A DNA stretch of 64,000 nucleotides from the NCBI RefSeq assembly GCF_009557455.1, contig NZ_CP045651.1:1302001-1366000 (forward strand), read 5' to 3'. This DNA is from Alistipes sp. dk3624 (GTDB taxonomy: Bacteria; Bacteroidota; Bacteroidia; Bacteroidales; Rikenellaceae). This document shows, piece after piece, positions 13,819-26,815 of this stretch; position 1 is the stretch's first letter; the number at the start of each line of letters is the position of its first letter. A program made the translations under genes and the position numbers. The notes under the pieces are model-generated. The model was not told the origin of the DNA, made no database searches, and saw only the letters and a program-made list of their open reading frames with translations.

Positions 13819-14629
13819 TTGCGAGTATTTTGTTGTAAAACGCCTGATAATGATCCAGATATTCTGCCGTCGTTTTATCCTGGAACTCCAGAAAAGGCTT
13901 TTTCTTTTCATGCAGGAAATCCACGATCGGCGCAGCAGGCTCCGGCGTCTCGAAAATTACGCCGTCCGCATAGTTGATAACGAACTTCATCAGGTTTTCG
14001 TATGTGGGATCGTCCAGATAATCGAGATATTTTTTAGGCACGCCCTCGCCCTGTATCTTGGCTTTGAACTTTTTGTCCAGCTCTCCTTCGAACGCATCGT
14101 CGTAAAGCGAAACGACGATCTTCACTTTTTTGAATATCGGATCGTCTGCGAACAGATTGCGCAGGTAAACCGGCACGATCGAAGAGAACCATCCGTGGCA
14201 GTGCACCACGTCCGGCGTCCAGCGCAGTTTTTTGACCGTCTCCAGCACCCCCCTGGCAAAAAAGATGGCCCGCTCGTCGTTGTCCGGGAACAAAACGCCG
14301 TTCTCGTCGCGGACGATCGCCTTGCGGTGAAAATAATCTTCGTTGTCGATAAAATAGATCTGCACCCTCGCCGCAGGAATCGAAGCGACCTTAATGATCA
14401 GCTGATGGTCGTTGTTATCGATGATCAGGTTCATTCCCGACAGGCGGATCACCTCGTGCAACTGGTTGCGCCGTTCGTTGATCAAACCGTAACGCGGCAT
14501 GAAGGTTCGAATCTCATTTCCTCGTTCCTGCATATTTTGGGAGAGCGTTCTGCATAAAACGGACATATCGCTTTCAGGGAGATACGGAGTTATTTCCTGA
14601 CAGACATAAAGAATTTTGCAGTTACTCAT
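13811..14629 (-). CDS. Glycogen/starch synthase-like protein, catalytic N-domain only (GT5-like)
   Basis: 272 residues from the ATG at 14629. MSNCKILYVCQEITPYLPES matches the start of GT5 glycogen synthases (KVLFVxxExxPfxKxGGL), though the ADP-glucose-binding KxGGL is replaced by PESDM. PDVVHCHGWFSSIVP matches the conserved DIVHxHDW helix. Full synthases have about 480 residues; this one stops after the first Rossmann domain and lacks the C-terminal nucleotide-sugar domain. Whether it synthesises glucan is therefore doubtful. A TATCTTTG -7 element lies 40 nt upstream and the gene overlaps DUF4270 by 8 nt. Confidence 0.8.
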   Translation of the reverse strand: MSNCKILYVCQEITPYLPESDMSVLCRTLSQNMQERGNEIRTFMPRYGLINERRNQLHEVIRLSGMNLIIDNNDHQLIIKVASIPAARVQIYFIDNEDYFHRKAIVRDENGVLFPDNDERAIFFARGVLETVKKLRWTPDVVHCHGWFSSIVPVYLRNLFADDPIFKKVKIVVSLYDDAFEGELDKKFKAKIQGEGVPKKYLDYLDDPTYENLMKFVINYADGVIFETPEPAAPIVDFLHEKKKPFLEFQDKTTAEYLDHYQAFYNKILANE

Positions 14630-14668
14630 TGGTACGAATTTTTCATCAATAGGATTTGAGACCTGATA

Positions 14669-14676
14669 CAAAGATA
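14669..14676 (-). promoter_or_regulatory. -7 element (TATCTTTG) for the GT5-like/DUF4270 operon
   Basis: Exact minus-strand TAnnTTTG match, 39 nt upstream of the start codon at 14629. Confidence 0.6.
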
Positions 14677-14723
14677 CTATTTTTTTTACGATTACCGTGC
14701 TGCGCAACGGCTTTTTTGCCCGT

Positions 14724-15773
14724 TTACAGGATCAGCATGGCATCGCCGTAGGTCCCGAAACGGTATTCCTCCGTACGGGCCACTTCGTAAGCGTCCATCA
14801 ACAGGTCGTAACCGGCAAAAGCCGCCACCATCATCAACTGCGTCGAATAGGGCAGGTGGAAATTGGTGATCATGCAGTTGGCCACGCTGAATTCGTACGG
14901 TTCGAATATAAACTTGTTGGTCCAGCCTTCGAACGGCTTCAGCCGGCCGTCGGTAGACACGGAACTCTCGATCGAACGCATCACCGTCGTACCGACCGCG
15001 CAAACCTTGCCGCCCGCATCCTTGACTTCGTTCACCCGTTCGGCAGTCTGCTGCGGAATAATCACCTGTTCCGAATCCATTTTGTGCTTGGTCAAATCCT
15101 CTACGTCCACCGTCCGGAAATTTCCGAGGCCGACGTGCAATGTCAGGAAAGCCATATGGATTCCTTTGATTTCCATTCGCTTGAGCAGGTGCTTACTGAA
15201 GTGCAAGCCGGCTGTCGGCGCAGCTACGGCTCCTTCGTTTTTGGCGAATATGGTCTGGTAACGCTCGTCGTCGATCGGCTCAACCTTCGTACGGATCCAC
15301 TTGGGCAGCGGCGTCTCGCCCAGTTTGAACAGGGCGGCCTTGAATTCGTCGTAATCGCCGTCGAATAGGAAACGCAACGTCCGTCCACGGGAAGTCGTAT
15401 TGTCGATCACCTCGGCCACCAGCAGGTCGTCGTCGCCGAAATAGAGTTTGTTTCCGATCCTGATCTTGCGGGCCGGATCCACCAGAACATCCCACAACCG
15501 GAGTTCCCGGTTCAGCTCGCGCAACAGGAAGATCTCGATCTCGGCGCCCGTTTTCTCTTTGTTGCCGTACAGGCGGGCCGGAAACACCTTGGTATCGTTG
15601 AAAGTGAAAATATCCCCCGGCTTGAAATAATCGACTACGTCTTTGAAAACCCGATGCTCGATTTTTCCGGTTTTGCGGTTCAGCACCATCAGCCGGGATT
15701 CGTCCCGGCACTCGGCCGGATATTTGGCCAACATATCGGCCGTGAAATTGTAATTATACTGAGATAATTTCAT
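14724..15773 (-). CDS. queA: S-adenosylmethionine:tRNA ribosyltransferase-isomerase
   Basis: Transfers the ribosyl moiety of SAM to preQ1 in tRNA, forming epoxyqueuosine. 349 residues, normal length: [20 protein letters not shown] start, [38 protein letters not shown] and the THVGLGNFR-equivalent [13 protein letters not shown]. It is the last gene of the minus-strand run ftsX-DUF3098-uppP-truB-queA, an order conserved in Bacteroidetes. Confidence 0.95.
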
Positions 15774-23651: not shown

Positions 23652-23996
23652 ATGCCAAGGTCAGTAAATGCAGTTGCATCCAGAGCCCGAAGAAAAAAAG
23701 TTTTGAAACTTGCCAAAGGTAACTTTGGTTCAAGGGGAAATGTATGGACGGTCGCCAAAAACACCGTAGAAAAAGGTCTCACCTATGCGTACAGAGACCG
23801 CAAGAACAAAAAACGTCAGTTCCGCAGCCTGTGGATTCAGCGTATCAACGCCGCTGTCCGCGGTCAGGGAATGACCTACTCGGAATTCATGGGTAAGATG
23901 AACGCCAAAGGAATCCGGCTCAACCGGAAAGTCCTGGCCGATCTGGCTATGAACAACGCCGCAGCATTCGAAAAAATCGTTAAAACAGTGAAATAG
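23652..23996 (+). CDS. rplT: 50S ribosomal protein L20
   Basis: 114 residues: [23 protein letters not shown] start, [31 protein letters not shown] and the conserved [21 protein letters not shown]. It binds 23S rRNA early in large-subunit assembly. The gene is followed by a strong terminator, after which the base composition becomes AT-rich. Confidence 0.97.
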
Positions 23997-24033
23997 CGCT
24001 TTCTCCGGGCCTCCCGGACAAACCAGCTAAATA

Positions 24034-24063
24034 AAAAGTGTCGGAAACAATTTCGGCACTTTT
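24034..24063 (+). terminator. Terminator of rpmI-rplT
   Basis: AAAAGTGTCGGAA (24034-24046) pairs with TTTCGGCACTTTT (24051-24063) with two G-U pairs, followed by TTTG. Confidence 0.85.
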
Positions 24064-24210
24064 TTGTTGGTTACTACTTACTACATTCAGTCATTATGCT
24101 TATTTTAGTCTAAATTACAGCATAAAACAATTCAAACAATAATAATTACAAAAAAAATTATAACTTAGTAAATCAAAATCACATTTTAGTAAATTAACAA
24201 AAAGGAGGCG

Positions 24211-24486
24211 TATAGCAAGCAAACAGTCAGACGGAGAAATGCGGCAGTAACTTTTTACAACGTTTCCACACCGGCAAATACTAAATATGATCTACTGGTG
24301 GGAGATATAGAGGCTCTAAGTCAAGATGAATCATCTTCAGACAAAGGAGCTCCTATGAGTTTTACTTGCGGCGCTCTTATCGGCTATGACAAAAAAGGGA
24401 AACCAATCTATTGCCAGACAACGGTTGTAACCTGTCAAGGAACGGGTACACATTGCGAACGCCGTCCATGCAATTTACACGGTTAA
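24211..24486 (+). CDS. NVEALA-like small cysteine-rich exported peptide, start codon not intact
   Basis: The open frame reads YSKQTVRRRNAAVTFYNV, then KYDLLVGDIEALSQDE, then a tail with five cysteines (FTCGA, IYCQ, VTCQ, HCE, PCN). The leader plus DIEALS motif followed by a short Cys-rich tail is the plan of NVEALA-family peptides of Bacteroidales. There is no ATG in frame: AAAGGAGG at 24201-24208 is followed by CGTATAGC, and the only listed start codon in frame is GTG at 24298, inside the motif. A lost G from ATGAGC would explain this. It ends at a 16-bp inverted repeat and is followed by a beta-propeller lipoprotein. Function unknown. Confidence 0.6.
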   Translation, partial: YSKQTVRRRNAAVTFYNVSTPANTKYDLLVGDIEALSQDESSSDKGAPMSFTCGALIGYDKKGKPIYCQTTVVTCQGTGTHCERRPCNLHG

Positions 24487-24495
24487 TCGAATATA

Positions 24496-24533
24496 AACAA
24501 CAGAGACAGATATAAAAATCTGTCTCTGTTGTT
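24496..24533 (+). terminator. Inverted repeat between the peptide and the propeller gene
   Basis: AACAACAGAGACAGAT (24496-24511) and ATCTGTCTCTGTTGTT (24518-24533) form a perfect 16-bp stem with a 6-nt loop. The stem itself ends in TTGTT and is followed by AAAGC, so it probably terminates or attenuates transcription between the abundant small peptide and the lipoprotein genes. Confidence 0.7.
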
Positions 24534-24555
24534 AAAGCATAAATAATATTATCTC

Positions 24556-25680
24556 ATGATGAACTATTTTATAAAGACAATTTTACCCTGCATAATTTTA
24601 TCCAGCATCTCTGCCTGTACTCAACAACCAAATACGATATCGCAAAACGATCAAAAAAATCTTTCCTGGATCGAACAAGAGGATAGTACCGCAGCGAACT
24701 ATATCGACACCGTAGAATATATTTTATTGGAAGCCCATCCGGACGGTCTTTTTAGAGAAATCGATAAATTAATCGTAAAAAACGATAAAATCTTTATTTT
24801 TGATTTTATAGGCCGAAACCAAGTACTGGTTTTTGACAGAAACGGGAAATTTCTATACAAAACAGGGAACAGGGGGCGCGGGCCGAAAGAGTATATCCAA
24901 CTTCGCAATTTTACCGTAGACGACAAATTTATTTACCTGATCGACAATATTAAACACGAATTGTTGCTACATGACATCCAAAACGGGAACTTCATCACAA
25001 AGAAAACTCTACCGTTTGTTGTTTATGATATGGCTGTTTTCGATAACGGAAATTACATTTTTTCATGGGCTGTAGTCGACGGCGCCATCCTTTCTCCCGG
25101 CCAACAACCTTACCGCATATATATTACCGATTCGGATATGAATATCAAAAACAGCATTTTCCCGACAAATGAAAACGACTGTAGCGTCTTATCCCGATTC
25201 TCGTATTTAACTCATTCCAAGGGATATTTCGTCTTTAATACGCTGGTTTCAGATTCCATAGCCGTTTTCGACAGAAAAGCGCCGGATTCAGTGAAAGTTT
25301 ATCACATCGATTTCAAAAACAGAAAAGCCCCACTAGAGGCAAAAAACGACCCGGAAAGACTATCCGGATTTCATTATCTGAGCGAAACACCGATCATGAC
25401 ACCCAAATATATGATCGGACAATTCAATGAAGATAAATACGGAGGACAGCCTTTCATATACGATCTGAATCGCCAAACGGTGGTGGGCACGAACATAATC
25501 AAAGATACATCCCGCTTTTTGCAAAAACCACTGGCTTATTTCGACAATCAGATTTTTTCACTTTATGATTATTCGACTTATATTTTTCAGATGAAAAACG
25601 GATTATGTACATTACCGGATTCAGTAAAAAAACATATGGACAAAGGCGACGGAGTCCTGATAACCTATCATTTGAAATGA
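24556..25680 (+). CDS. Six-bladed beta-propeller lipoprotein
   Basis: 374 residues (second ATG at 24559 possible). Lipobox SSISAC gives a lipidated cysteine near residue 21. The body has repeated beta-propeller blade motifs such as KIFIFDFIGRNQVLVFDRNGKFLYKTGNRGRGPKEY, FIYLIDNIKHELLLHD and MAVFDNGNYIFSW, typical of the Bacteroidales six-bladed propeller (DUF5128/BF3164-like) family. These are often found next to NVEALA peptides. The AT-rich composition differs from flanking genes, suggesting acquisition. Its TGA stop overlaps the next start (ATGA). Confidence 0.85.
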   Translation: MMNYFIKTILPCIILSSISACTQQPNTISQNDQKNLSWIEQEDSTAANYIDTVEYILLEAHPDGLFREIDKLIVKNDKIFIFDFIGRNQVLVFDRNGKFLYKTGNRGRGPKEYIQLRNFTVDDKFIYLIDNIKHELLLHDIQNGNFITKKTLPFVVYDMAVFDNGNYIFSWAVVDGAILSPGQQPYRIYITDSDMNIKNSIFPTNENDCSVLSRFSYLTHSKGYFVFNTLVSDSIAVFDRKAPDSVKVYHIDFKNRKAPLEAKNDPERLSGFHYLSETPIMTPKYMIGQFNEDKYGGQPFIYDLNRQTVVGTNIIKDTSRFLQKPLAYFDNQIFSLYDYSTYIFQMKNGLCTLPDSVKKHMDKGDGVLITYHLK

Positions 25681-26207
25681 AAATAATTTTTGTCGTATTA
25701 ACCAACATACTTCTTTTTGCCTGCGTAAATAATAATCGCACAGATGCGCCTGAATTACTCGACAAGATTCTCGACAAGCAAATTTTAATTAAAAACCATT
25801 CCTATTGCATCAATGGGAAAGATACGCTAATCTCCGACATGATGGATACATCCCATTTTAAAATCGTAATATTCGCCGAATCATCAGATTGTGAGCGCTG
25901 TTCCTGGAGGCTGGAAGAATGGTTCCTGAAAAAGAAAGAATTGTCACTACTCGATAAAAATCCGTCTTTTATATTTATCGTACAGAGCAAAAACAGAAAT
26001 TTAACTGAACATTACATCCGTGAAGCTTTGCCGGATATTCCTGTAATTTACGATTCAACCTCTAATTTTATTTCAGCAAACGGATTACCTCAAGAATCCG
26101 CTTATCATACGTTACTTTTAGATAAAAACAATCGTGTACGTCTAATCGGATCGCCCATCAACAACGACAAATTGTGGGAGTTATACAAAAAAGAAATCGA
26201 CAATTAA
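25677..26207 (+). CDS. Thioredoxin-fold-like lipoprotein with a CxxC motif
   Basis: 176 residues from the ATG at 25677, overlapping the propeller stop by 4 nt. Lipobox TNILLFAC. After a short linker, KIVIFAESSDCERCSWRLEEWF places a CERC pair at the N-terminus of a helix, as in thioredoxin-like proteins. FIFIVQSKNRN, IPVIYDSTSNFISANGLPQ and YHTLLLDKNNRVRLIG follow the peroxiredoxin/TlpA strand order, including the cis-Pro-like region. It is likely a periplasmic-face redox protein acting on disulfides, perhaps of the Cys-rich peptide upstream. The specific family is not certain. Confidence 0.78.
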   Translation: MKIIFVVLTNILLFACVNNNRTDAPELLDKILDKQILIKNHSYCINGKDTLISDMMDTSHFKIVIFAESSDCERCSWRLEEWFLKKKELSLLDKNPSFIFIVQSKNRNLTEHYIREALPDIPVIYDSTSNFISANGLPQESAYHTLLLDKNNRVRLIGSPINNDKLWELYKKEIDN

Positions 26208-26284
26208 TTTAACAGGCAACAAACAGGACGGTTATCTCGGACAACGGGCCATCCCTAAAAGACAGATTATAAATTAATTAAAAA

Positions 26285-26312
26285 CGGATCCGGTCGAAAT
26301 CGACCGGATCCG
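26285..26312. terminator. Bidirectional terminator, accessory operon versus greA
   Basis: CGGATCCGGTCG (26285-26296), loop AAAT, CGACCGGATCCG (26301-26312). On the minus strand it is followed by TTTTTAATTAATTT, so it is a good greA terminator; on plus the tail is TAAATATA. Confidence 0.85.
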
Positions 26313-26338
26313 TAAATATATTCAGGAAACCCAACCGG

Positions 26339-26815
26339 TCAGATCGAAATATTCAGTATCTCGAAACGCAGCACGCCCGACGGAACGGTAACGTCGACCT
26401 CTTCGCCCTTTTTGTGTCCGAGCAGCGCCTGTGCGATCGGGGTACCGATCGACAACTTGCCCTCTTTCAGGTTGGCCTCGTTTTCGGAAACCAGGGTGTA
26501 CTCCACGACCTTCCCGGTGGTTATATTTTTAAGAGTTACGCGGTTCAGAATCTGAACGGTACTGGTGTCAATACGCGATTCGTCGAGCACCCTTGCATTG
26601 GCAACGGTATCCTCCAACTTGGCAATACGCATCTCAAGCATGCCCTGAGCCTCTTTGGCCGCATCATACTCTGCATTCTCCGACAGATCGCCTTTGTCGC
26701 GGGCTTCTGCGATCGCGGCGGAAATAGCAGGACGCTCGACCGAACGGAGGTGATCCAGTTCGTCTTTCAGCTTTTGTAAACCCGCTTCGGTTAAATAAAC
26801 AACGTTTGATGCCAT
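26339..26815 (-). CDS. greA: Transcription elongation factor GreA
   Basis: Stimulates transcript cleavage by backtracked RNA polymerase. 158 residues: N-terminal coiled-coil with the acidic tip ARDKGDLSENAEYDAAKEAQG (tip residues D and E near 41-44), and a C-terminal FKBP-like domain with TPIAQALLGHKKGEEV. It is preceded by a 64-residue membrane protein and by a leader with a promoter and a terminator-like hairpin. Confidence 0.96.
   Translation of the reverse strand: MASNVVYLTEAGLQKLKDELDHLRSVERPAISAAIAEARDKGDLSENAEYDAAKEAQGMLEMRIAKLEDTVANARVLDESRIDTSTVQILNRVTLKNITTGKVVEYTLVSENEANLKEGKLSIGTPIAQALLGHKKGEEVDVTVPSGVLRFEILNISI

Follow-up and report, generated by a model that had tools for sequence, protein, structure and literature searches.

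An NVEALA-like peptide, propeller and thioredoxin-like gene cassette in Alistipes, apparent satellite of a larger Bacteroidales gene system

Do the parts of a short AT-rich segment, a Cys-rich peptide frame followed by two lipoprotein genes, belong together, and if so to what? The question was raised by positions 24064-26284 of a 64,000-nucleotide (nt) stretch of the genome of Alistipes sp. dk3624 (the whole stretch is called the window here; the source genome is a single contig of 3.02 Mb). G+C content was 36.8 % in this cassette and 53.3 % in the whole window, in line with the AT-rich character given to it by the initial annotation. The cassette is one copy among many of a three-gene unit composed of an NVEALA-like peptide, a six-bladed beta-propeller lipoprotein and a thioredoxin-like lipoprotein. 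It looks like a satellite of a larger Bacteroidales gene system, apparently devoted to maturing and exporting small secreted peptides. The following features were distinguished:

24193-24486, + strand: open frame with a Cys-rich NVEALA-like peptide, stop codon at 24484-24486
24203-24208, + strand: AGGAGG, resembling a ribosome-binding site, no in-frame start codon at the usual spacing
24298-24486, + strand: listed open reading frame (ORF) from GTG, 62 amino acids, without signal peptide
24304-24321, + strand: DIEALS, counterpart of the NVEALA motif, with a putative cut site after S
24496-24533, + strand: perfect 16-nt inverted repeat with a 6-nt loop, arms 24496-24511 and 24518-24533, no T-run after it
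24556-25680, + strand: six-bladed beta-propeller lipoprotein, 374 amino acids, PF17170 (DUF5128), E 7.6e-33
25677-26207, + strand: thioredoxin-like lipoprotein with CERC, 176 amino acids, ATGA overlap with the propeller gene, Redoxin

Occurrence of the three-gene unit

Co-occurrence of the three families, a check that the initial annotation had asked for, was seen across Bacteroidales genomes and loci. For 82 of 99 distinct NVEALA-like ORFs, the next gene with a label was a propeller, same-stranded and at most 600 nt away (median gap 59 nt). Among the other 17, it followed a second peptide in three cases, lay at 600-4000 nt in six and was absent in eight. The loci behind these 99 ORFs were mostly fetched via a peptide match, those of the own genome and L136-L148 having been chosen with an eye to propellers; where a different gene had served for fetching (80 named loci), the propeller followed 59 of 75 peptides. 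Directly upstream of the thioredoxin-like genes stood a propeller in 36 out of 44 cases, an S26 signal peptidase gene in two and nothing labelled in six.

Pfam NVEALA matches (E <= 1e-3) numbered 16 in the own genome and five in the next of 112 genomes of its family, Rikenellaceae. NVEALA was present in 17 and PF17170 in 25 of these 112 genomes, 15 of which displayed both (Fisher 2e-10). Genomes G014 and G063 had NVEALA without a PF17170 match, yet a purpose-built profile located a propeller beside the peptide in each.

The larger gene system

Next to peptide units of the family were found a Wzy_C protein with TPR repeats (WaaL-like, hereafter Wzy_C/TPR), an S26 signal peptidase and a lipoprotein of ~650 residues with a weak transglutaminase part and a carbohydrate-binding-like C-terminal part (transglutaminase-like). 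These make up the system together with the peptide, the propeller, the thioredoxin-like protein and a pump composed of a membrane fusion protein (MFP), an RND protein, a TolC-like channel and a further RND protein. The cassette had been proposed as a peptide export and maturation unit; its families did co-occur, and the unit turned out to be a satellite of this larger system.

Wzy_C/TPR was encountered in 18 of the 112 family genomes (14 by close copies) and the transglutaminase-like protein in 21, including all 18 Wzy_C/TPR genomes (5e-18). NVEALA and the close Wzy_C/TPR copies shared 13 genomes (Fisher 9e-13). Named genomes were scanned using the Wzy_C/TPR alignment, the best 80 of 374 relatives being retained, and synteny was counted in the 30 of these 80 loci that exceeded 20 kb: propellers neighboured in 28, S26 in 27, thioredoxin-like genes in 25, NVEALA and transglutaminase-like genes in 23 each, RND and MFP in 21 each and TolC-like genes in 20, in loci that are the copies most like the peptide-linked ones because the alignment came from peptide-linked loci. 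In Bacteroides faecis the full row was colinear on one strand over 18 kb, in the order NVEALA, propeller, thioredoxin-like, transglutaminase-like, glutaminase-A-like, S26, Wzy_C/TPR, MFP, RND, TolC-like, RND. The glutaminase-A-like protein within this operon (L226:7021-8901) displayed GtaA hairpin, DUF5127 and DUF4964 matches. The own genome contained a core locus as well:

263445-265325: Wzy_C/TPR
265483-266367: S26
266393-266950: thioredoxin-like
267116-268615: TolC-like
268660-269736: MFP
between MFP and the AcrB-family gene: ORF of 1023 residues
272898-276116: AcrB-family protein
276220-277866, opposite strand: terminal peptide-propeller pair

This core locus lies 1.05 Mb away from the window cassette, which is why the latter is regarded as a satellite. 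The transglutaminase-like genes of the own genome were located away from the core locus.

The S26 assignment held for the relatives and for the own core copy (TIGR02227, 114 bits, cut-off 47), and the Ser and Lys of the family aligned with the active site of a solved signal peptidase I. A WaaL fold was recovered for the core Wzy_C/TPR protein, its TPR domain being of the kind seen in O-GlcNAc transferase, in a comparison that listed mostly TPR matches and says nothing on other ligases or oligosaccharyltransferases. Transglut_core matched L076 with 28.2 bits (cut-off 23) and L117 with 17.7, below the cut-off, and none of the other scanned members; one Cys and one His were invariant in the alignment of 10 transglutaminase-like sequences.

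A second Wzy_C/TPR class, with scores of 111-257 and without NVEALA, was encountered at G000:C1:2096177-2099974, 2817842-2819533 and 615258-617012 and in L174, L175 and L176. It often adjoined a transglutaminase-like gene, small secreted TPVFSY/TPVFSW proteins were seen in L170 and L174, and the class perhaps serves another class of substrates. In L076 a MauE/DoxX-family membrane protein (14551-15633), a possible electron donor, stood between the Wzy_C/TPR and thioredoxin-like genes. Two records titled Tissierellia (L195) and Lachnospiraceae (L241) contained a Wzy_C/TPR gene, accompanied in L241 by peptide, propeller and S26; they are probably misbinned Bacteroidales contigs.

The peptide frame of the window

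Relatives of the window peptide were of consistent build. Of 85 peptides considered, ~95 % displayed A, S, T or G after EAL and 79 had a hydrophobic segment 16-27 residues ahead of the motif; Cys occurred in all 85 mature parts and in even number in 68. The window copy had been described as a small peptide with a DIEALS leader motif and five Cys. The motif and the five Cys downstream of it, in an open frame, were retrieved; a recognisable signal leader and a start codon suited to the ribosome-binding site were not, which bears on the expression of the frame that the initial annotation presupposed. The first in-frame ATG, GTG or TTG was the GTG at 24298, two codons ahead of DIEALS, and a hydrophobic leader was absent in all three frames of the region. 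The best 15-residue hydropathy ahead of the motif was 0.02 against a median of 2.25 in the relatives, among which three with truncated starts have values below zero.

The Pfam NVEALA model (PF14055) left the window peptide unmatched at E <= 1. Its likeness to NVEALA consists of the motif and of a paralogue at 1217471-1217686 (35 % identity), which itself passes the NVEALA cut-off. For peptide and propeller alike, the closest relative was one and the same own-genome pair (1217462/1216267). Since it has neither usable start nor hydrophobic leader, the window peptide gene is probably decayed, next to open propeller and thioredoxin-like genes. Five further peptide frames of the own genome had no usable start or leader (967701, 1447059, 1803149, 2057986 and 2251310), and 15 others looked intact. 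At G000:C1:2251310-2251600 eight consecutive A separate the ATG from a leader that lies in another frame, which could be phase variation, decay or sequencing error.

The hairpin between peptide and propeller

The hairpin noted earlier between peptide and propeller was recovered as the perfect 16-nt repeat given above. Its RNA folded at -24.9 kcal/mol (z -8.92), a value equalled by none of 200 dinucleotide shuffles, and the feature recurred in other copies. The 85 pairs provided 48 distinct gaps of 30-250 nt, folded with z against dinucleotide shuffles; 204 gaps between other co-directional ORFs of the same loci served as controls. At z < -2, folds were seen in 38 of the 48 gaps between peptide and propeller and in 46 of the 204 controls (Fisher 4e-13); at z < -3 the numbers were 30 and 30 (Fisher 9e-11). 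The position of the hairpin was common across loci and its sequences differed. As its stem is not followed by a T-run, the window hairpin may be a stabiliser or attenuator just as well as a terminator. The data are compatible with the role initially proposed, production of the peptide in excess over the lipoproteins.

The two lipoproteins

Both lipoprotein genes stood as first described, the ATG of the thioredoxin-like gene (25677) overlapping the propeller stop (ORF end 25680) within ATGA. By eye, each ORF displayed an N-terminal hydrophobic stretch followed by a lipobox-like ISAC or LFAC. The propeller belonged to PF17170 by family and fold (114.5 bits, curated cut-off 22.9) and its structure was predicted with a pLDDT of 88. 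The nearest solved propeller was BF0058 of Bacteroides fragilis (PDB 4raa; profile E 2.8e-52; Foldseek E 8.2e-20, TM 0.75), which shares the fold and is titled only as a putative exported protein. Further structural neighbours of the model were NHL propellers, BamB, BtuG (8blw, 8ptf) and XusB (9hqe).

The own-genome loci contained 29 open propellers, of which 13 followed an intact peptide, four a broken one (that of the window included) and 12 none; the G+C of propeller genes in this genome was mostly 0.37-0.50. Propellers outlasting broken or lost peptides recall the behaviour of immunity genes, and by this analogy immunity is slightly favoured over a receptor role. The propeller alignment comprised 60 of 163 candidates. 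Tandem arrays of four propellers were encountered in L136 (G005) and L139 (G003), from same-genus genomes without an NVEALA match. In L140, L141 and L178 (G110), propellers followed another Cys-rich protein, secreted and CBM14-like in pattern (PF01607, 22.0 bits, cut-off 22.1), as though one peptide family had replaced another.

The thioredoxin-like ORF of the window matched Redoxin at E 4.4e-4, below Pfam's own cut-off. It displayed the CxxC active site as CERC, and both Cys were invariant in 33 aligned sequences, an alignment that omits L075 (a relative without CxxC) and truncated ORFs.

Flanks and origin of the cassette

The cassette is bordered by two genes which we take, from their sequence, to be rplT and greA, and by their terminator-like stems, outside the unit:

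23652-23996, + strand: presumed rplT
24033-24064, + strand: terminator-like stem after rplT
26284-26313, - strand: terminator-like stem after greA
26339-26815, - strand: presumed greA

The segment had been called inserted between these genes, which the data do not show: gene order differed in the six same-genus genomes read, where greA was not found in ~6.5 kb downstream of rplT, and hence there is no empty site to compare. Horizontal insertion was set aside as not demonstrable. The close cassette was looked for elsewhere via P0001, which yielded no confirmed relative among genome contigs; among nine genus genomes, P0001 at E <= 1e-20 and the window peptide at E <= 1e-3 matched only the own genome. 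A defence system was rejected as a candidate, five proteins having no PADLOC match.

Proposed mechanism

The gene system is an observation; the way it would work is inferred from its parts. On balance, and by a narrow preference, the window unit is regarded as a satellite of a Bacteroidales system for the production and export of disulfide-rich peptides, the propeller being the cognate partner of a peptide cut by the S26 enzyme and exported by the RND pump. The precursor would enter the inner membrane by means of a hydrophobic stretch at its N-terminus. Cleavage by the S26 enzyme would take place after NVEALA (A-x-A/S/T at -3/-1), ~20 residues past that stretch, where an ordinary signal peptidase would not cut. 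Disulfides would be set by the thioredoxin-like lipoproteins, a role already suggested for the CERC protein by the initial annotation, and the WaaL-like protein, which could bind the peptide through its TPR domain, may modify or deliver it. The RND pump and TolC would then take it out of the periplasm, and the propeller lipoprotein would be the cognate outer-membrane partner, most likely binding the peptide for self-protection or uptake. In the window, the leader appears decayed and the propeller and thioredoxin-like genes are open, as expected if a propeller retained value (e.g. immunity) without its own peptide.

A bolder version is possible and is put forward tentatively. A new Bacteroidales secretion pathway, dedicated to these peptides, would have a specialised signal peptidase that recognises NVEALA and cuts there, a WaaL-derived TPR protein handing over to the RND-TolC pump, and propellers as a peptide-specific immunity or capture repertoire, the pairs forming matched, fast-turning arsenals.

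Several points weigh against the satellite interpretation, each mechanistic step of which is inferred. Global co-evolution of peptide and propeller, assessed in 83 of the 85 pairs plus the window pair, was not significant: the similarities of the two did not correlate significantly when all pairs within genomes were taken (rho 0.11, 146 of 2000 permutations), nor in the own genome by itself (536 of 2000). In favour of the interpretation, seven related propeller pairs within genomes (similarity 0.15) had related peptides, which was reached in 5 of 5000 permutations (13, 43 and 34 of 5000 at other similarity thresholds), the thresholds having been chosen afterwards; such a result agrees with inheritance of the two genes together and is no proof of binding. 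PF17170 propellers also occurred alone (12 of 29 in the own genome, tandem arrays in G003 and G005). NVEALA was present without a Wzy_C/TPR match in four of 17 genomes (G021, G032, G044 and G063), and G007 had a close Wzy_C/TPR copy without NVEALA. The pair of the own core locus is encoded on the other strand, and the locus has no transglutaminase-like neighbour. Of the six core genes, four first came to notice near peptides and the profiles were made from those copies, so that synteny is partly selected for. A cis-proline opposite the active site is a trait of thioredoxin-like proteins such as TlpA, ResA and StoA; StoA displays it as the proline of IPTSF, whereas the window's family has none there, IPTSFLL aligning to rfhtfLL of the profile. 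The His of the WaaL HN motif has a role in catalysis; an invariant Phe350 replaces it in all 18 WaaL-like sequences aligned (18 of 19, truncated G007 omitted), opposite the H of EHAHND in WaaL (7tpg), and glycan transfer is thus doubtful.

Other readings were weighed on the same evidence. Peptides might be pheromones or nutrient or metal chelators caught at the surface by the propeller, like BtuG and XusB beside TonB-dependent transporters. One-to-one pairing would suit this, as would BtuG and the siderophore-binding lipoprotein XusB among the structural neighbours; these ranked far below 4raa and also below NHL propellers, however, and no TonB-dependent transporter or regulator was a fixed neighbour among labelled genes, unlabelled ORFs not being identified, so the reading appears rather unlikely. 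Somewhat less credit is due to surface assembly, in which Wzy_C/TPR and transglutaminase-like proteins would join peptides to glycan or to each other into a non-diffusible layer or matrix. The WaaL fold with its O-GlcNAc-transferase-type TPR domain, the invariant Cys and His and the carbohydrate-binding-like C-terminal part speak for it, but the Phe at the aligned catalytic His does not, Transglut_core was reached by just the two proteins named above, one below cut-off, and the RND/TolC pump would be superfluous in such a scheme; it is considered unlikely.

It is improbable that the window peptide gene functions via a non-standard start codon or an unrecognised leader. Its AGGAGG, its open frame, a Cys-rich end resembling that of the paralogue and an intact downstream hairpin would agree with function, and other own-genome peptides likewise have no in-frame start; the missing hydrophobic stretch contradicts it, and the remaining broken leaders have out-of-frame ATGs, as from decay. 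Co-location without joint function, i.e. expanded lipoprotein families and small decaying ORFs gathered in AT-rich, unstable chromosome parts, could invoke the own genome's outlying number of NVEALA matches, its six broken leaders and the low G+C of its propeller genes. Against it stand the constant gene order and strand, the short gaps, the hairpins and the joint presence in several Bacteroidales families, which make this highly improbable.

Relation to known systems

MacAB-TolC, which exports heat-stable enterotoxin II, and the exporters of Gram-negative microcins handle small Cys-rich peptides with periplasmic disulfides through a tripartite pump whose outer part is a TolC-type channel. The system proposed here from its genes would resemble them in these respects; in contrast, MacB is an ABC protein where the Bacteroidales operon has two AcrB-family RND proteins, and a dedicated S26 enzyme, a WaaL-like/TPR protein and one propeller lipoprotein per peptide are added. 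Bacteriocin/immunity clusters and those of ribosomally synthesised and post-translationally modified peptides (RiPPs) contain a precursor with a conserved leader, a leader protease, an exporter and a partner gene that may outlive a lost precursor. The same logic would apply here, although the proteins scanned gave no match to an ABC peptidase transporter, a radical SAM enzyme or a lanthipeptide enzyme. With signal peptidase I (E. coli LepB), the core S26 protein has the family match and the aligned Ser and Lys in common; it differs by its conserved operon and by the proposed site ~20 residues past the hydrophobic segment. The core WaaL-like protein differs from the WaaL O-antigen ligase by its C-terminal TPR domain as well as by the Phe.

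In Bacteroides thetaiotaomicron VPI-5482, BT0662 is listed as O-antigen ligase family, BT0663 as hypothetical, BT0664 as 6-bladed beta-propeller, BT0667 as signal peptidase I and BT0669 as RND adaptor (PMC10434189). These are the same kinds of genes, taken as one cluster by their locus numbers only; expression changes had P values of 0.11-0.44, and the cluster itself is not discussed in the portion of that report considered here (PMC10434189). Among open-licence PubMed Central papers, none contained the word NVEALA, none was found to describe the gene combination, and no function was found for the NVEALA and propeller families, which agrees with their initial description as uncharacterised. 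Each part is from a known family; the novelty lies in how they are combined and in the path proposed.

NVEALA and DUF5128, two Pfam families without described function, thereby gain a shared gene context and a testable role, and the reading predicts a dedicated signal peptidase whose recognition geometry would be new. It further suggests that Bacteroides, Parabacteroides and Alistipes relatives common in the gut export whole families of Cys-rich peptides. Should the propellers serve in immunity or capture, the peptides would add a layer to competition or signalling among gut bacteria.

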